Positions 39,465-48,723 of a DNA stretch of 64,000 nt are shown here, piece after piece. The stretch's first letter is position 1; the number at the start of each line of letters is the position of its first letter. This DNA is from Candidatus Kapaibacterium thiocyanatum (GTDB taxonomy: Bacteria > Bacteroidota > Ignavibacteria > Kapaibacteriales > Kapaibacteriaceae), in assembly GCA_001899175.1 (NCBI GenBank), contig MKVH01000021.1, positions 1 through 64,000 of the forward strand, written 5' to 3'. A model generated the notes under the pieces. The model worked only from the letters and a program-made list of their open reading frames with translations. It did no database searches and was not told the DNA's origin. Position numbers and translations under genes: made by a program.

Positions 39465-42400
39465 TTACGGCGCCATGGGCGTCTTCATCACCATCCAGTA
39501 GAAGCCACCGCCTTCGGTGGGAGCGTCGGACAGCGTGACCGTGAATTCGTTGTCGGCGGCATTGACGGCCGAGATGGCGAACTGCATCGGTGCACCGGAA
39601 CGCGGGGTGATGATGATGACATCCCCGTCCTCCAGGTCGTAGGCACCCGGAATGGCAACCGTGTATTCCACGACGTTTCCGGCGCCGGCCTGGAAGCCGC
39701 GTGCGATACCGACGGCGGCATCGGGCTTCTTCCACGTCGTGACACCCGCACCATCGGTCACGAGTACATCGCCGCTGTTCCCCGCATCGGGCGGGAGCGA
39801 GAGTTGCCATGAACCCGTAGGAACGATGCGCGTCGTGACATCCCTGCCCAGTTCCATCCAGGGAGAGGTGAAGTAGGTGCCACTGACACCACCGACGTAG
39901 AGGTAGTTCTCGGCGAACAGTTCCATCGTGCCCTTCGTCGTCAGGTAGACGGATGCGCCTTCACGTCCTGCGCCGCCGAGAGTCAGACGGGAGTAGTCGG
40001 ATACGCTCTGGGGACCGTTCTGCTCGGAATCGTCGCGGAAGCTCAGCTCCAGTTCGTAGTCGTCCATGTCGATGGACGCACTGCGATAGCCGTAGGCATT
40101 GCTTTCGTAGTTGAGGAACATTCCGTACGGGAGCATGCGGAACGAACCGTTGGCATAGCCGACGGGTTCTTCGTCGCAACCGCAGCCGATCGGCGAGTTC
40201 GTGTTGACGTCGAAGCTCGACGTGAACTGACCCGACCACGTCTCACCGTCGAACGTCGCACACTCCGCATCGACGTCCAGGGATTTACTATCGATCTTTA
40301 CCATGTCCTCGACGTTCATGGTCAGGGCGCCGGTACCACCGAACGTCAAGGTCGTCGTCGTATCGTTCCTGTCGTTGATGGTCACATAGTGATCGCGCGT
40401 GATCGGATTCATGTCGGGTGTGATGCCGCCGAGTTCGAACGTCGCGTTCGACGAGTTATAGACGATGCCCTGATCCGCCGTTGCTACCAGGAGCGAGGCA
40501 TTCAGCCACGAGAGTTCGTTGGTTTCCGTATCGAGCTGCAGGATGCCGCCCTTGCGCGATTCCGTCGGCGACGTCGTGGACGGCAACCGATACGTGATGT
40601 CGTCCGCCTGTTCGGATGCCGCCTTGAAGGTCGTGGACCGTTCGTTGCCGACGGTAAAGAGCTTCAGGCCGCGCGTCGATTCGACGTCGGCGAGAATTTC
40701 GAGATGATCGTCGATCTGTACCGCATGTTCCGGATTGGAGAGCCTGCCGTCCTCGGCGACGTTCAGACCTGCAGGGGACGTGACGGTGAACAGTCCTTCG
40801 ACGTCCACGCCACTACCCGCATCGACGTTGCCGGAAAAGCGGACCTGTGATCCGTTCATCTGGACCATCTCGCCGTTCGGACCGAATTCGAGACGCGTCG
40901 TATCGTTGGTCTTGATGCCGACGGCCTGCGGATTGACGGAACCGATGGTGGTCGGCTCCATGAGGTAGTTGCCGCCGAGCAGCCAGTTGAGTTCACCGAT
41001 CCGGCGACGGCTGACCACATTCGACTCACTGTCGATCAGGAGAATATCACTGTAGGTACCGCCGTGGTGCCCGAGTCCCCTGATGCTGAGACTGCCATTG
41101 CCCTCTTCACCGGAGACGTCGATCCTTACGTCATCCGCATCGCCATCTCCGAGCATCGTCGAACCGTCGACGGTCGTGTTGCCCTGGGCATCGGAACGCA
41201 GCTTGAGGTTCTCTGTCCACTGTGCGGTTTCGACGTCCCAGAAGATCGTCGATCCTTGCGTGGTACCGTGGCGAAGCCCAGGTGCCGTGATGGTGATGGT
41301 TCCGTCACCGTTGGTGATGGTGACGCCTTCGCCAGCCGTCAGCGTCGCGACCTGATAGGAACTGTCGGTCTTGCCGATCAGCAGACTGCCCGGCATCGGC
41401 TTCGTGCCCGTTCCCGTACCGCCATGAACGATGGGCAGGATACCACTGGATACGGCACCGGCATTGAGGTCGGTAAGATCCGGACCCGAGATTCCGACCG
41501 ATCCTGCCGCCGTCAGGCGTCCTTGCGGATCCACCGTGAACGTCGGAATCATGGTCGGCGAACCGTAGGAACCGGTTGTGACGGTCGTATTCGCGAGCTT
41601 CGACGACGTCACGGATCCATCGGCGAGTTTCGGAGTGGTCACGGCACTGTCGGCAAGACGCGACGTCACCACCGCGCCGTTCCTGATGAGAGGATCGGGA
41701 TAGGTACCCGCGAGATCGCCACCTGCATTGCCACCGGGAACCGTACCCGATATCGTGACGTTTCCTGCCGATGTGATACGGCCCTTGGGATCGACGGTGA
41801 TCGTCGCGACCTGTGTCGACGATCCGTAGGACCCGGTCGTGACACCCGTGTTCGCGAGTTTCGGCGACGTCACGGATCCATCGACGAGCTTGGGCGTCGT
41901 GATGGAGGCATCGCCGATCTTCGGTGTCGTGACGGAACCGTCGGCAAGCTTCGACGTAGCGATCGCACCGTCGAGAACCTTCGGCGTCGTGACTGCATTC
42001 GCAGCGATGGAGGGGTTGGGATAGGTGCCCGTCAGATCACCACCGGCTGGCCCCACAGGACGCATACCGGTAAGCAGATAGTTGTTGACGCCGAGGATAC
42101 GGCCGGCCGAATCGACTTCGAAGACGGGAATCCTGTCCGTACCGCCATAGACGCCGGGAGCGACACCAGTCTTCGACATCTGGTCGGACGTCACCTGGTC
42201 GCGCCCGATCTTCGACGTCGTGACCGCACCATCGGCAAGCTTCGGCGTCGTGACCGCGCCGTTCCTGATCAGAGGATCGGGATAGTTGCCCGTGAGATCG
42301 CCTCCCGCAGGGCCGTCGAGTTCGGGCACCTTGACGGGGATGGTGACGGCACCCGTCACACGGCCCTGTGCATCGATGGCCACGACGGGAATTTCCGTCG

Positions 42401-43187
42401 AAGAACCGTAGGTGCCTTGCACGACACCGGTGCGCGAGAGCTTCGGGCTCGTCACCGCTCCATCCGCAAGCTTGGGCGTGGTGATGCCGTCATCGGCTAC
42501 GTCGACGATGACGTCGGGACCCGATCCGTTCCGTACATGGATGGAACGATCCTGGCTGGCGACACTTCGCACTCCTGCCTGGACGATGGCACCGGTGATA
42601 CGGATCGTATCGCCGATCACTTCGACGTCGATGCCTTGCCCACCCTTGATGACGACGGCACCTTCGAGATCGTTGAGACTGGATACCACGCCGTCGGCGC
42701 CAGGTGCCACGCTCAGCGTACGTTCCGACGTCTCCGCGTGAATGGCATATGGCACCTGCGCCAGAGCCGTACGCGGCCGGAAGGGAGCCTGCCCCGTGAT
42801 CCCGACTTCGAGCCAGAGCGGCCGCGAGAAGTCCACGTTCGTCATGGCGACCTGCGTACCGATGAGCACGGTGAAGAGACCGCGTTCGACCGTGACGACG
42901 TGAGCTTCGGTATAGACCTGCGCTCCAGCCGTAGCATCGTCGTAGAGGGAGAGATTCAGGGTATAGGTACCGTCCGGCACAGGCAGACCGTTGGCCCCGG
43001 CCAGAAGCCCCTGATAGCTGATGATGCGGGGAATCTGGGCGTTCGCCACAGGGCCGCACATGCAGGACAATGCGAGAGCCGCCGGCAGTACGATGCGCAT
43101 ACCGATGCGCCCTGCCATGCCCCCGCGCATTCCGTTGAAGGAGGAAGAATTCGACATGATGAAGCCCGCCCGTATAGTATGTTTCAT
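39465..43187 (-). CDS. Giant secreted repeat protein, phage-fibre-like
   Basis: This 1240-residue protein has a signal peptide (core IVLPAALALSCM, cleavage near NAQ). An N-terminal domain (about 52-150) contains ISYQGLLAGANGLPVPDGTYTLNLSLYDDA. A low-complexity repeat zone (231-570) has AGGDLTGTYPNP and TTPKLADGAVT units like those of phage tail fibres. A long beta-rich region follows, ending with SGDVLVTDGAGVTTWKKP and a small C-terminal domain. It has no T9SS sorting tail. Its ATG overlaps the stop of the small T9SS protein (TAATG at 43187), so they are co-translated. A second ATG at 43157 also gives a signal peptide. A surface filament or adhesin is my guess. Confidence 0.72.
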   Translation of the reverse strand: MKHTIRAGFIMSNSSSFNGMRGGMAGRIGMRIVLPAALALSCMCGPVANAQIPRIISYQGLLAGANGLPVPDGTYTLNLSLYDDATAGAQVYTEAHVVTVERGLFTVLIGTQVAMTNVDFSRPLWLEVGITGQAPFRPRTALAQVPYAIHAETSERTLSVAPGADGVVSSLNDLEGAVVIKGGQGIDVEVIGDTIRITGAIVQAGVRSVASQDRSIHVRNGSGPDVIVDVADDGITTPKLADGAVTSPKLSRTGVVQGTYGSSTEIPVVAIDAQGRVTGAVTIPVKVPELDGPAGGDLTGNYPDPLIRNGAVTTPKLADGAVTTSKIGRDQVTSDQMSKTGVAPGVYGGTDRIPVFEVDSAGRILGVNNYLLTGMRPVGPAGGDLTGTYPNPSIAANAVTTPKVLDGAIATSKLADGSVTTPKIGDASITTPKLVDGSVTSPKLANTGVTTGSYGSSTQVATITVDPKGRITSAGNVTISGTVPGGNAGGDLAGTYPDPLIRNGAVVTSRLADSAVTTPKLADGSVTSSKLANTTVTTGSYGSPTMIPTFTVDPQGRLTAAGSVGISGPDLTDLNAGAVSSGILPIVHGGTGTGTKPMPGSLLIGKTDSSYQVATLTAGEGVTITNGDGTITITAPGLRHGTTQGSTIFWDVETAQWTENLKLRSDAQGNTTVDGSTMLGDGDADDVRIDVSGEEGNGSLSIRGLGHHGGTYSDILLIDSESNVVSRRRIGELNWLLGGNYLMEPTTIGSVNPQAVGIKTNDTTRLEFGPNGEMVQMNGSQVRFSGNVDAGSGVDVEGLFTVTSPAGLNVAEDGRLSNPEHAVQIDDHLEILADVESTRGLKLFTVGNERSTTFKAASEQADDITYRLPSTTSPTESRKGGILQLDTETNELSWLNASLLVATADQGIVYNSSNATFELGGITPDMNPITRDHYVTINDRNDTTTTLTFGGTGALTMNVEDMVKIDSKSLDVDAECATFDGETWSGQFTSSFDVNTNSPIGCGCDEEPVGYANGSFRMLPYGMFLNYESNAYGYRSASIDMDDYELELSFRDDSEQNGPQSVSDYSRLTLGGAGREGASVYLTTKGTMELFAENYLYVGGVSGTYFTSPWMELGRDVTTRIVPTGSWQLSLPPDAGNSGDVLVTDGAGVTTWKKPDAAVGIARGFQAGAGNVVEYTVAIPGAYDLEDGDVIIITPRSGAPMQFAISAVNAADNEFTVTLSDAPTEGGGFYWMVMKTPMAP
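41478..42497 (-). repeat. Coding repeat zone of the fibre-like protein
   Basis: It encodes residues 231-570. AGGDL(T/A)G(T/N)YP(D/N)P occurs three times, LADGAVTTPKL-like decapeptides occur many times, and a GSYGS...VDPxGRxT unit occurs about four times. The periodic sequence suggests a trimeric beta-helical or fibrous fold. Confidence 0.8.
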
Positions 43188-43777
43188 TATCGTATCAATT
43201 GAACCGAACCGGAGCTGCGCACACGCTCACCCGTCGTCATGCTGCGTCCACGTACCTGGATGATGTAGGTCCCCGTCGCGACCGGACGCGCGTCGGCATC
43301 GGTGCCATCCCACGTGAATCGTTGCGGCACGGATGTCGTCACGCTCGTCTTCATCGTGCGGATCATACGGCCCGACATGTCGAACACGAGCACGTCGACA
43401 TCGCCGCCGAGCTGTTCGCCGACGTCGATGGTCGTATGCTCCGTGAACGGATTCGGATACGTCGAGATGCGCAGCCATTTGCCGGAGAGATCGTCGTCCA
43501 CGGACGTGATGATCGGAATCGGAGCCCAGAACCCCTGATAGATCTTCAAGGCGCCGTTCGTCGTGACCTGCGTGATGGGTTGGCCGATCGTAGCGACCAT
43601 GATATTCGAAAGGCTTACGGATGGCGTCGCTCCACCGGAGGCGACCACCTCCCTGACCTTGACGGCATCCTGCGCCCGGAGTACGGATGCGCACATGAAC
43701 GACGTCGCGAATGCGATGCCGACGATGCGGATGATACGTGACTGCAGCACCGTAACTGGTACCATGTTCTGCCCCAT
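43187..43777 (-). CDS. Small secreted protein with T9SS type A sorting domain
   Basis: This 196-residue protein has a signal peptide (IRIVGIAFATSFMCASVLRAQ). A short domain (about 38-92) carries ASGGATPSVSLSNIMVATIGQPIT and YQGFWAPIP, a pattern common in Bacteroidota secreted proteins. The C-terminal T9SS sorting domain (100-196) includes YPNPFTEHTTIDV, VFDMSGRMIRT, FTWDGTDADARPVATGTYIIQV and a final GSVQLIR. It should be exported through the outer membrane by the Por system. It is coupled by TAATG to the giant repeat protein and may act as its anchor or partner. Start at 43777; an ATG at 43765 is possible. Confidence 0.82.
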   Translation of the reverse strand: MGQNMVPVTVLQSRIIRIVGIAFATSFMCASVLRAQDAVKVREVVASGGATPSVSLSNIMVATIGQPITQVTTNGALKIYQGFWAPIPIITSVDDDLSGKWLRISTYPNPFTEHTTIDVGEQLGGDVDVLVFDMSGRMIRTMKTSVTTSVPQRFTWDGTDADARPVATGTYIIQVRGRSMTTGERVRSSGSVQLIR

Positions 43778-43801
43778 GCGACTATCGATCAAATTGCCGC
43801 G

Positions 43802-43860: not shown

Positions 43861-44439
43861 TCAGTATTGCAGTAGAAACACGGACGCGACCTCGGATACC
43901 ACCGTCGCAAGAGGATAGAGATCGTCGGGATGATACCTGATGGATACCCTGCACTCGCGCTCGGCATTGTTCGGTTCCGCTCGCAGGAACAACGTGTCCC
44001 CTCCTCCGTTGACGGCAGGAATACGGAAGACCGTGCCGCTGCCCTGCATCGAGAATCCCATCTGCGACGCCGTCTCCGCATCCATATCGCTCGGTGCGCC
44101 CACGACGGGATGCCATTCGCCATCCGCTGCGAGGGCCTTGCATCGGATATAGAGGCTCGACGGTGCAGGCACGGATGCCTGCCGTTCGGCCTGCACCTCC
44201 ATACGGAGATCGATCGTGACACGATCACCATCGACGTGTATCTCCCCGGACCACGAACCCGGCATGTGCGCCATGACATAGGACCGTCCTTCATAGTCCA
44301 GCGCGATGTCGGGAGTACGGATGATCCTGCTGCCTACGATGACGGTCTCCCTTCTCTCCGTACTCAACGATGCCGCATTGTCGCATGCGCAGAACACGGA
44401 CGTCATACCTAGAACCGATGCGACGACGAGATGCTTCAT
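43861..44439 (-). CDS. Hypothetical lipoprotein of the sigma cassette
   Basis: This protein of about 192 residues has a signal peptide and lipobox FCAC. The mature domain is beta-rich (YVMAHMPGSWSGEIHVDGDRVTIDLRMEV) and has two further cysteines in IRCKAL and ERECRVSI. No family is recognised. Its ATG overlaps the stop of the anti-sigma/beta-barrel gene, so it completes the cassette. A role as a ligand or modulator of the barrel is only positional inference. Confidence 0.62.
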   Translation of the reverse strand: MKHLVVASVLGMTSVFCACDNAASLSTERRETVIVGSRIIRTPDIALDYEGRSYVMAHMPGSWSGEIHVDGDRVTIDLRMEVQAERQASVPAPSSLYIRCKALAADGEWHPVVGAPSDMDAETASQMGFSMQGSGTVFRIPAVNGGGDTLFLRAEPNNAERECRVSIRYHPDDLYPLATVVSEVASVFLLQY

Positions 44440-45623
44440 AGCGACCATATCCTCGACCGTATTCCGAAGGTCCAGCCGATCCGGTCCGTCAAACGCAAGG
44501 TACCATCATGTGAATAGAGCCATGCCGACGCATCGGCGCCACCATAGATGTCGATACCTTGCAGGACGTTGACGGACAGCCCCAGGGCCCCTCTGCCCGC
44601 AGGACCGACTCTCGTTCCACCGACCGTCACCTGGGCATATGGTGCGAAGCGATCGAACATCGTGTACTCCGTCGCATCGTAACGCACGCTCACGCCACCC
44701 CAAAGGAGATTGGGCTGCTGGTCGATCCGGAGGCGATCGCTGCCCTGTGCGCTTTCCCACGACATCAGCACGGATTCATATCCGAGATCGACACCGATAC
44801 TGAGTGACGGCGTGATGTTCCACATCGCACTGAGCACGATGCGTTCGGCGAGATCCGGTGCATGCAGCGGTTGAATCGTACCACCGAAGGCACCGACGGT
44901 CGTCCGTAGCGAAACGGCATCCGGCCATCCACCCGGTCGTTGCCGGGCGCTCTCTTCGAGCGTCATCGTCGTGGCTTCGTACAACGATGATGCCGTTTCG
45001 TATCGTTCGACGTCCGGCGTTCCGACCGCATCCATCGGTGACGGGGTGATATCCGCATAGGTCATGGACTTGTCCGGCATCGCCGTCCCTACCGGATTCC
45101 CGTCCGGGATCCGTGTGTCGGCCACAGGCCGGTCCCGATAGCGATCGACATAGCGCACGGACTCCCTCGTACGCTGGCTTTCCGTCGGGACCGTCACCGC
45201 CGACGTCCCATGCGTCGATACCGACGGTGTTGCGGGTTCCATTCGCCGTTCGGTTCGTGCGGCACCCTGCGCGATCATGTCCTCCTTCCTCGCATCTCCC
45301 AGCCACCAGCCGATGGCGAACGAGGTCAGGACCACCCCTCCCGTGGTCAGCAGGATGATCAGCCACGAGAGTCCGCCGAAGCCGGCCGCTGCGCCGACCG
45401 TAGCGGGTGACGGTGCGATGGTACCGAGGACACCTGTGGCGAGTGCGGGCGGAATCGGCGTGGCTGCGGCCGAGTCGCGTGCCATGCGCCGAAGGAGCAT
45501 GTGCTCGCCGAGTTCGGCGGCAAGGGAAGGATCGCTTCCTGCCATCTCGAACAACCGGCGACGCGACTCGGTATCCGTTACCTCGCCGTCCAGGAATCGC
45601 TGTATCAGTTCACGTTGTTTCAT
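44436..45623 (-). CDS. Anti-sigma-like protein fused to a beta-barrel-like domain
   Basis: This 395-residue protein starts with a charged helical cytoplasmic segment (1-60: LIQRFLDGEVTDTESRRRLFEM) resembling anti-sigma N-termini but lacking the zinc HxxxCxxC site. One membrane helix follows (about 85-108, LSWLIILLTTGGVVLTSFAIGWW), then a Pro/Thr/Arg-rich linker of about 125 residues. The C-terminal 160 residues form alternating strands (SLSIGVDLGYESVLMSWES, LLWGGVSVRYDAT, RFAPYAQVTVGGTRV, IGWTFGIRSRIWSL) like small outer-membrane barrels. Its start overlaps the ECF sigma gene by 14 bases. The layout suggests one protein linking outer membrane, inner membrane and sigma factor. Confidence 0.65.
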   Translation of the reverse strand: MKQRELIQRFLDGEVTDTESRRRLFEMAGSDPSLAAELGEHMLLRRMARDSAAATPIPPALATGVLGTIAPSPATVGAAAGFGGLSWLIILLTTGGVVLTSFAIGWWLGDARKEDMIAQGAARTERRMEPATPSVSTHGTSAVTVPTESQRTRESVRYVDRYRDRPVADTRIPDGNPVGTAMPDKSMTYADITPSPMDAVGTPDVERYETASSLYEATTMTLEESARQRPGGWPDAVSLRTTVGAFGGTIQPLHAPDLAERIVLSAMWNITPSLSIGVDLGYESVLMSWESAQGSDRLRIDQQPNLLWGGVSVRYDATEYTMFDRFAPYAQVTVGGTRVGPAGRGALGLSVNVLQGIDIYGGADASAWLYSHDGTLRLTDRIGWTFGIRSRIWSL

Positions 45624-46230
45624 CGTCGTTCTTCGCCTTGGTGATTGGTGTCGGCGCATCGTCGTGACCGAACATCTCACGAACGTCGCCAAGTACCGGG
45701 CGCAGGATCTCGCGCAGACGTGTGCGAGCGCGCCATACCCTCGTCTTGAGCGTGGACATCGTCTCGCCCGTGATCGCCATCATCTCGTCGTAGGTCAGGC
45801 CTTCCATCTCATACAGAACGAAGGCTTCGCGAAGGGTAGTATCCAGTAGCTCGAGAGCCCCGTCGAGCAGCACGAGGGCTTCGCGCTGCTCGTACGGTCT
45901 GTCCCGCATGAGCAGTTCCACGTCTTCGAGTGTCACGTGCCGGACGTCCGACCGCTTCGCATTCAGGATCTGGTTGCGCGCCACGCGCAGGAGATAGGCA
46001 CCGACATGATCCGGTACGACGTCCTTCCGTTCGAGTACCTGCAGGAGCTTCAACCATGCATCCTGGAAAAGATCCGATGCCTCGTGTTCCCCGCCCGTCA
46101 TCTTGCGGCAGTATGTGTACAATCGCTGTGCATGCCGACGATACAGCTCGTTCATCACATCCGAACGCAGCTCTGCATGTTCTCGCCAGAGAACACACAG
46201 AACTGCATCGGCATGGTGAGCGACGTTCAC
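45610..46230 (-). CDS. ECF-type RNA polymerase sigma factor
   Basis: The 206-residue sigma-70-family protein has region 2 (ELYRRHAQRLYTYCRKMTGGEHEASDLFQDAWLKLLQ) and region 4 (LLDTTLREAFVLYEMEGLTYDEMMAITGETMSTLKTRVWRARTRLREIL). Both are typical of extracytoplasmic-function sigmas. There is no region 3 and no regulatory extension apart from a charged tail. The next gene overlaps it and has an anti-sigma-like N-terminus. The lipoprotein upstream stops two bases before its ATG. The usual arrangement is release of sigma from the anti-sigma on an envelope signal. Confidence 0.92.
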   Translation of the reverse strand: MNVAHHADAVLCVLWREHAELRSDVMNELYRRHAQRLYTYCRKMTGGEHEASDLFQDAWLKLLQVLERKDVVPDHVGAYLLRVARNQILNAKRSDVRHVTLEDVELLMRDRPYEQREALVLLDGALELLDTTLREAFVLYEMEGLTYDEMMAITGETMSTLKTRVWRARTRLREILRPVLGDVREMFGHDDAPTPITKAKNDDETT

Positions 46231-46232
46231 GA

Positions 46233-47048
46233 TCAGTGTACCGAGCTGCGGACGAGTGTACGTGTAAAGGTCACGACGGACTTCTTTGGCTTCGTCGGGT
46301 GCTCTTCGAAATCGGTGACCTGTTCACCGGACCATGAGATGATACCGACGTTCTTCACGACCTGGATATCCTGACGACTGGTCCTGACATACGACCTGCT
46401 TCCACTTTCGATGAAGACGGCATTATCGGGAGTGACGACGTATGTGGAATCCGCATCCCAGAGCTGGAACAGCTTCACGTCCGGATAGTTGGGTGCGGAC
46501 GTATTCGACGTCGCATTGTCGACGGTAATCTTGTGTCCAACGACCAGCTCGACGAGATTCCCGTCCTTGTCGATGGACGGTAGTCGCTCATCCTCCCTGG
46601 TCAGGCGTTCGACGGTGCTGCGCCCACGGCTCGGGCAGGTGCCTCCGCTGATCATCTTCGAATACAGGCATGTGCAATCGATGTTGTAGAACACGTTCCC
46701 GCTCCACAGGATGGAATCGCCTTCCATGGCTACGAACAGGCTGTCGAACGGAGTGCCGTTACGGTAGACATGCAGTTCGTAACTCGAATGACCATCGAAG
46801 ATCGTCGAGCCCACCACCACGATCGAATCGCGGAAGGTCTCGATCCCTCGCAGCTCGGGCTCGCCGACAGGATAGGTCGTGACGAACTTCTGCTCACCGG
46901 TATAGACCCACCAGTTACCCGTATGCAGGGCAAAATATTCATCGAGATTACAATTCTCGTCGTGAGGGCTGACCCCCCTGTCGGTACAGCCCCACAGGAT
47001 CGATGCACACAACAGGGTGAAGACGAACGCTTTCATCGGATTCTCCAT
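46233..47048 (-). CDS. Lipoprotein of the GNWWVY pair, copy 1
   Basis: This 271-residue protein has lipobox LWGC (Cys21). The mature N-terminus CNLDEYFALHTGNWWVYTGEQ closely matches copy 2 (CSIVESFALRTGNWWVYSCEE). Both continue with TFRDSIVVVGSTIFDG-like, cysteine-containing C-x-C and TGIL/IISW segments, so they are tandem paralogs about 270 residues long. The fold appears beta-rich. The stop is two bases before the sigma gene, which implies co-transcription. Function unknown; envelope sensing is inference. Confidence 0.68.
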   Translation of the reverse strand: MENPMKAFVFTLLCASILWGCTDRGVSPHDENCNLDEYFALHTGNWWVYTGEQKFVTTYPVGEPELRGIETFRDSIVVVGSTIFDGHSSYELHVYRNGTPFDSLFVAMEGDSILWSGNVFYNIDCTCLYSKMISGGTCPSRGRSTVERLTREDERLPSIDKDGNLVELVVGHKITVDNATSNTSAPNYPDVKLFQLWDADSTYVVTPDNAVFIESGSRSYVRTSRQDIQVVKNVGIISWSGEQVTDFEEHPTKPKKSVVTFTRTLVRSSVH

Positions 47049-47066
47049 ATTGATGATGTCATATCG

Positions 47067-47876
47067 TTATCGTACGGAACTTGCGACGAGGCTTCGTATC
47101 CGGCGCCTGGACTTGAACGGCACGATATCGAGGATTCCCGTCATGGCCATTTCGAGCTCATTCCATACGATGATGCCTCTGCCCGGTGCCACCACGAAAT
47201 CGTGCGTGAACGTCGTCGTCAAGTACTGTTTTCCGTCAGCGAAGGTAACGTTCTTCGGTCCGGCGATCGAGACGGAGTCGACCGTCCGTACGGCATACTT
47301 CCTGCCCTGGACCACGGCGCCGGGAATGGCCACCGTCGTATCGGCACTATGGCGCCAGGCCACGAAATCGTGATGCATGTGAACGTTCACGATCTCGCCG
47401 TTGCTGTCCAATGCGGGCAGGAGGGTCGGGTCGTCCGTCTGCATGCGATCCGTTCCATCTTCCTTCTCTCCGCACACGCCGCTGACGAGCCATACCACGT
47501 CGAAACATGCGCACGGCAGCTTGGTGAAGGTCGTTCCGTGCATGATCAGCTTCGTACCGTCCGCGATCATATGCATGGTGTCGAGGATCGCACCATCCCT
47601 GAACCGCTGGACTTCATGACACAACCGTCCCCCGAGAATGGCCGTCCCCATCACGATGATGGAGTCGCGGTAGGTGGTGATGCGAACGTCGTCACGCGCT
47701 CCGTCGTCGACCGATTCCTCGCAGGAATAGACCCACCAGTTACCGGTGCGCAGAGCGAAGGATTCCACGATCGAACAGTCGCCCGTCGGATGGACGACGC
47801 CACCGCACGATACCAGAAGCATCGATATCGCTGCGAGGCTCAGGATGAAACGGACCATCTGTCTTCTCCGGCGCAA
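47067..47876 (-). CDS. Lipoprotein of the GNWWVY pair, copy 2
   Basis: This 269-residue protein has a very basic start (MRRRRQ) and lipobox LVSC. It shares the FALRTGNWWVYS motif, ITTYRDSIIVMGTAILGG and the paired cysteines LPCACF with copy 1 and lies 18 bases upstream of it. It is the first gene of the cassette; 77 bases separate it from queC, in which I see no consensus -7 box. An alternative start at 47858 would shorten the basic segment. Confidence 0.68.
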   Translation of the reverse strand: MRRRRQMVRFILSLAAISMLLVSCGGVVHPTGDCSIVESFALRTGNWWVYSCEESVDDGARDDVRITTYRDSIIVMGTAILGGRLCHEVQRFRDGAILDTMHMIADGTKLIMHGTTFTKLPCACFDVVWLVSGVCGEKEDGTDRMQTDDPTLLPALDSNGEIVNVHMHHDFVAWRHSADTTVAIPGAVVQGRKYAVRTVDSVSIAGPKNVTFADGKQYLTTTFTHDFVVAPGRGIIVWNELEMAMTGILDIVPFKSRRRIRSLVASSVR

Positions 47877-47953
47877 TTGTTGAGTGATCTACTGTACCAG
47901 ACACAGTTCCTGTGCTTCGGTCTCAGAAAATCGGCGGCCGGATGGAAATAATC

Positions 47954-48693: not shown

Positions 48694-48723
48694 TAAAAAA
48701 GGCCCGACCAGCGGTCGAGCCGA
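48694..48723 (-). terminator. Terminator of the rpsB-tsf-pyrH-frr operon
   Basis: On the minus strand GGCTCGACC and GGTCGGGCC pair over nine bases around GCT, followed by TTTTTT. It lies 40 bases beyond the frr stop. Confidence 0.88.

Follow-up and report, generated by a model that had tools for sequence, protein, structure and literature searches.

A lipoprotein-led ECF sigma factor operon with a Dma-like anti-sigma/barrel protein in Candidatus Kapaibacterium thiocyanatum, a candidate autoregulated envelope circuit

Introduction

In known systems that connect the cell envelope to an ECF sigma factor, the barrel and the anti-sigma factor are not always combined. RseA is an anti-sigma factor without an outer-membrane barrel, and RseB is a soluble periplasmic protein; in FecI/FecR/FecA, a 22-strand TonB receptor, FecA, supplies the barrel as a protein of its own. 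The Dma (dual membrane-spanning anti-sigma) proteins of Bacteroides have an anti-sigma domain, a transmembrane helix, a tether, and a barrel (PMC13088901). Such proteins would relay information from the outer membrane to the sigma factor through one polypeptide. Deletion of Dma2 in B. thetaiotaomicron raises expression of its own operon most strongly (PMC13088901).

A literature search for sigma factor systems of the Kapabacteria found none. Here a cassette from this group is described in which lipoprotein genes, an ECF sigma factor gene, and the gene of a Dma-like protein are joined. The genomes compared are largely metagenome-assembled, and the functional statements made below are all inferences from sequence.

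Organization of the cassette

The window, meaning the whole stretch of 64,000 nucleotides analysed (positions 1 to 64,000 of MKVH01000021.1), is from contig C21 of a 3.27 Mb genome that is 99% complete. The original prediction had five minus-strand genes between 43861 and 47876, and all five are present, following queC in the order lipo1, lipo2, ECF sigma factor, anti-sigma/barrel, lipo3. The features of the region, on the minus strand throughout, are:

47900..47925, minus strand: candidate autoregulatory promoter of the ECF type, TGAGAC-N15-GTGTC, lying some 41 bp 5' of where lipo1 starts
47067..47858, minus strand: lipo1, GNWWVY-family lipoprotein, 263 aa, lipobox LVSC
46233..47036, minus strand: lipo2, GNWWVY-family lipoprotein, 267 aa, lipobox LWGC
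45610..46230, minus strand: ECF sigma factor, 206 aa, GTG start
44436..45623, minus strand: Dma-like anti-sigma/barrel protein, so named from its AlphaFold2 model, its barrel matches, and its N-domain profile
residues 3-49 of that protein, minus strand: helical N-domain, from the AlphaFold2 model
45303..45374, minus strand (residues 84-107): predicted inner-membrane helix, from the model and a hydrophobic stretch
44451..44918, minus strand (residues 236-391): predicted 8-strand outer-membrane beta-barrel, pLDDT about 70-89
43861..44439, minus strand: lipo3, lipoprotein, 192 aa, directly 3' of the anti-sigma gene, with a family member at that position in genomes UBA2333, UBA7675, IP29b_bin.46, and SSF3

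The start of lipo1, which had been placed at the TTG at 47876, is corrected to the ATG at 47858, and lipo3 has an alternative start, the ATG at 44448. The junctions are as tight as had been described: 30 bp lie between lipo1 and lipo2 and 2 bp between lipo2 and the sigma factor gene, which overlaps the anti-sigma gene by 14 bp, while the anti-sigma gene and lipo3 share 4 bp (ATGA), or 13 bp with the earlier ATG. The proposed paralogy of lipo1 and lipo2 is borne out by 28% identity over ~240 residues (E 8e-27). Only the sigma factor has a Pfam match among the cassette genes, and no significant match to Pfam or NCBIfam was found for lipo1, lipo2, or lipo3. Between frr and queC, at 48701-48723 of the window, there is a minus-strand terminator-like hairpin with a T tract.

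Sigma factor and anti-sigma/barrel protein

With regions 2 and 4 only in its 206 aa, the sigma factor is of the ECF type (Pfam Sigma70_r2, 3.7e-15, and Sigma70_r4_2, 5.2e-8; NCBIfam TIGR02937, 4.5e-21). It does not belong to the FecI-type Bacteroides sigma factors as defined by TIGR02985 (Sig70_bacteroi1), where it scores 56 bits against a curated cut-off of 126.

The alignments used for structure prediction were of 6-7 sequences only, and from six of these AlphaFold2 gives the anti-sigma/barrel protein three N-terminal helices, a transmembrane helix, a disordered tether, and a barrel. The helix at residues 84-107 falls in a low-confidence region of the model, where the sequence is hydrophobic, consistent with the single helix of Dma. 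The tether, at ~110-228 (~120 residues), has a pLDDT mostly below 35 and no secondary structure, as is expected of a disordered segment. The C-terminal barrel matches those of NspA, OmpA, OprF, and OmpW (Foldseek; VIA-align Z 12-14, rmsd 2.3-3.9 Å), the best being NspA and OmpA (VIA-align Z 13.4-13.6, Foldseek E about 1e-4). Like Dma, the protein is encoded beside an ECF sigma factor, whose gene it overlaps.

Pfam and NCBIfam have nothing significant for the anti-sigma protein. The weakest link of the Dma-like reading is the N-domain. The top two matches of its profile in the PDB are anti-sigma factors, DdvA with E 0.36 and E. coli RseA with E 0.62, both sub-threshold and both aligned at the expected position. 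Weak matches to zf-HC2 and RseA_N are also seen, in at most 10 of 23 relatives. On present evidence, from sequence and model, the cassette anti-sigma may work like Dma. The fusion of a barrel to an anti-sigma factor, which the original prediction took to be an unfamiliar arrangement, is in kind already known, since this is the published Dma architecture (PMC13088901).

The anti-sigma/barrel protein has a match in 59 of the 60 relatives searched, which suggests that the Dma-type layout occurs widely across the Kapaibacteria order and is not confined to Bacteroides. There are seven matches to the Dma profile in the genome of the window. Another sigma/Dma-like pair in this genome (L189; G000:C21 near 361 kb) is followed by a 754-aa protein, carboxypeptidase-regulatory/TonB-receptor-like by eye, and then by a lipoprotein. 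Judging from this locus, Dma-type pairs may drive transport genes too.

Conservation and mobility of the cassette

The anti-sigma protein and lipo2 were searched for in 60 relatives, and the lipoprotein profile in 123 genomes of the order. The six best lipoprotein matches (E <1e-84, the next being about 1e-29) all directly precede a sigma/anti-sigma pair: two in the window, two in UBA7675 (G031, f10), one in Ca. Kapaibacterium IP29b_bin.46 (G037, f8), and one in UBA2333 (G004, f1), where the contig starts just upstream. Conservation of the gene order in relatives had been set as a check on the cassette, and the order of one to two lipoproteins, sigma factor, anti-sigma/barrel, and lipo3 is found in these three further genomes, which belong to three families, making 4 of the 123, a recurrence beyond what chance would give. 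UBA2333 and UBA7675 are labelled Ignavibacteria, and NCBI puts Kapaibacterium in Bacteroidota. In SSF3, a genome-wide scan finds the sigma factor, the anti-sigma protein, and lipo3 kept and both lipo1 and lipo2 absent, which would make the upstream lipoproteins dispensable for the switch.

The cassette sits in different genomic neighbourhoods across the genomes that carry it. In a genome of the same genus (G001) there is no cassette after queC, and in one of the same family (G005) the genes immediately after queC are homologous to two of the window, the type IX secretion system (T9SS) gene at 43187 and that of the large protein at 39465. That these flanks adjoin without the cassette supports its gain or loss as a unit, and it behaves as a movable one. 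The large protein (39465-43187) is an exported protein of 1240 aa with repeats of the type 'GGDLTGTYPNP...DGSVTTPKLA', and its neighbour (43187-43786) ends in a C-terminal domain of the type IX secretion kind. Its counterpart in G005, of at least 2652 aa, is preceded by queC and a small T9SS gene.

In a tree of 31 rows, the sigma factors of the cassettes are one another's nearest rows, the window pairing with UBA2333 (support 100/99) and UBA7675 with SSF3 (97/63), with these four together at 83/85 and IP29b_bin.46 unresolved. The cassette could also be an ECF21/Dma member by descent, simply a divergent form of the Bacteroides-type system. The identical domain order would fit such an origin, as would the order of sigma factor, Dma, and lipoprotein in L178 and L179, the Dma2-type operons taken from two Bacteroides-like genomes via the DUF4943 gene. 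However, profile comparison with the Dma2-type proteins detects no homology (hhalign probability 4%, the Bacteroides profile being of two sequences), the best relatives of das2 in the genome of the window are other sigma factors, and the window sigma factor shows no preference for das2 in the Bacteroides-like genomes. Common descent with the Bacteroides system is on balance unlikely.

A conserved promoter-like dyad

The sequence TG(A/C)GAC-N14-16-GTGTC is present 5' of the first gene in all four testable operons (the window, UBA7675, IP29b_bin.46, and SSF3), one of the four reading TGCGAC; the contig of UBA2333 is too short for inclusion. The dyad was noticed after the sequences had been viewed. 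A de novo dyad search of the four 150-bp regions has 43 of 44 bases matching, against 36.5 in dinucleotide shuffles (sd 0.64, maximum 38), with 0 of 100 shuffles reaching the observed value, and the background is 3.2e-4 per 220 bp. In its exact TGAGAC form, the dyad is found at two sites of the 3.27-Mb genome of the window, this one and another inside a coding region, at one site in UBA7675, and at three in IP29b_bin.46. At two loci of IP29b_bin.46 (L201 and L206), TGAGAC-N15-GTGTC is intergenic, ahead of two genes for apparently exported proteins, a possible wider regulon in that genome.

A looser form, TGHRAC-N14-16-GYGTY, precedes 7 of the 19 further sigma-Dma operons, against a background of 0.4% per 220 bp, although the pattern was relaxed after the sequences had been viewed and its p-value is optimistic. 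As a genome-wide regulon signal, TGCAAC-N14-16-GTGTC is not above its reversed control. An E. coli-type promoter scan of the cassette gave nothing above chance, and the Bacteroidota-type TAnnTTTG was not found upstream of the cassette in the window, but is present in SSF3.

By its sequence, the dyad is a candidate ECF autoregulatory promoter ahead of the lipoproteins, and its conservation before lipo1 supports a single autoregulated transcript. It might otherwise be that the lipoproteins adjoin the sigma factor gene incidentally and are separately transcribed, as the patchy distribution, in 4 of 123 genomes, would allow. The recurrence of the same order in different neighbourhoods, the 2-bp junction, and the dyad conserved before lipo1 make this most improbable.

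The lipoproteins

The GNWWVY family is found in 83 of the 123 genomes of the order, mostly unlinked to a sigma factor. Among the best-scoring 30 GNWWVY loci, chosen regardless of their neighbours, 7 adjoin a sigma factor or Dma gene, upstream of the sigma factor in four genomes and downstream of the anti-sigma gene in G115, G114, and G078. The two copies in UBA7675 are sisters (97/92), which led to the rejection of an ancestral lipoprotein pair, and those in G115 belong to a different clade, so the tandem duplicates have separate origins in the lineages of the window, UBA7675, and G115. The original prediction regarded the placing of lipoproteins before the sigma factor as unfamiliar; the arrangement is indeed unusual, but it is restricted to certain lineages and its tandem duplications are separate. 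Tandem GNWWVY lipoproteins leading a sigma factor operon, seen here in several lineages and neighbourhoods, were not found in the literature searched, and it is they that set the cassette apart from the known Dma arrangement.

A lipoprotein gene is also the usual neighbour 3' of the pair. It is present directly 3' of 18 of 32 distinct sigma-Dma pairs, compared with 26 among 325 control genes (p 2e-10, Fisher), where the pairs are those of the fetched loci and the downstream lipoproteins were called by a strict lipobox rule. In the window, this is lipo3. The lipoproteins behind the sigma-Dma pairs of L185 (G271, outside the order) and L135 (SKW166) carry a degenerate FFPLNNG / YFPNTVGTKWVY motif and are perhaps distant GNWWVY relatives.

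There is about an even chance that the lipoproteins are simply the output of the circuit, a surface or periplasmic cargo that is produced while the sigma factor is active and has no role in signalling. They come first behind the shared promoter-like dyad, the GNWWVY family is common without a sigma factor, and its separate tandem duplications are as in an expanding surface protein, but this reading leaves the frequency of a lipoprotein beside the anti-sigma gene unexplained.

A more tentative possibility is that they are parts of the sensor, the GNWWVY proteins binding the barrel or tether at the outer membrane and setting the hold on the sigma factor, as in RseB-RseA or RcsF-OmpA. The occurrence of GNWWVY genes in more than one position beside sigma-Dma pairs would be in keeping with this, as would Cys29 and Cys134 of lipo2, which are invariant in the alignment of the six cassette members. 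The lipo2 model is beta-rich and resembles lipid-binding sheets: VIA-align places it with the Parabacteroides lipoprotein BDI_3050 (Z 9.6), the YmcC-like BF2203 (9.2), and LolA and LolB (about 7), and Foldseek has weak matches to MTP/lipovitellin, RseB, and nitrobindin. However, the model has a pLDDT of 58, which is poor, and the matches found with it are barely above noise, a hint too weak for a fold assignment. At the sequence level, the lipoprotein profile matched nothing in the PDB. Against a sensor role there are also SSF3, which has the switch without the GNWWVY genes, and the distance of most family members from any sigma factor.

A proposed circuit and its relation to known systems

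The gene order, its conservation, the domain layout, and the conserved dyad, all of them computed, are probably best explained by a self-contained autoregulated ECF circuit with a trans-envelope anti-sigma factor, of which the operon, including the lipoproteins, is the main product. Binding of the sigma factor, insertion of the barrel, the signal, use of the promoter, and the location and role of the lipoproteins are inferred. The N-terminal domain of the Dma-like protein would hold the sigma factor at the inner membrane, the tether would cross the periplasm, and the C-terminal barrel, of OmpA size, would sit in the outer membrane. A change there would release the sigma factor, perhaps by proteolysis, for transcription from TGAGAC-N15-GTGTC before lipo1, inducing the whole operon in a feedback loop whose main envelope product would be the lipoproteins. 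The raised expression of its own operon on deletion of Dma2 offers an analogy for this autoregulation.

The suggestion that the cassette is a self-contained unit fits the near-uniqueness of the dyad in the genome and the absence of the block between the same flanks in G005; its envelope-sensing role is putative. A stronger version, that it is a movable three-part switch, independent of Bacteroides ECF21/Dma, in which outer-membrane GNWWVY lipoproteins are made first, from the promoter of the circuit itself, and act as ligands or sensors gating the anti-sigma factor, is decidedly unlikely. With a Dma-like protein and lipoproteins behind a near-unique promoter-like signal, the cassette would be a minimal system in which to ask what the barrel senses.

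Like RseA-type anti-sigma factors, the cassette protein is predicted to sequester its sigma factor from a membrane anchor, and RseA is the second-best PDB match of its N-domain, but it carries an outer-membrane barrel that RseA does not, and its neighbours are lipoproteins rather than the soluble RseB. As in FecI/FecR/FecA, an outer-membrane barrel is proposed to signal to an ECF sigma factor, although here the barrel is small and fused to the anti-sigma factor. The closest likeness is to the Dma proteins of Bacteroides, shared in one predicted transmembrane helix, a long disordered tether, the C-terminal barrel, and a sigma factor gene directly upstream, and extended in the Dma2-type operons of L178 and L179 by the DUF4943 protein with a lipoprotein-like signal that follows the barrel anti-sigma. 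The helical N-domain is a candidate counterpart of the sigma-binding domain of Dma. Unlike Dma, the cassette has a sigma factor that is not das2-like, neither being nearest to the other in either direction, and two lipoprotein genes ahead of the sigma factor in the same operon.
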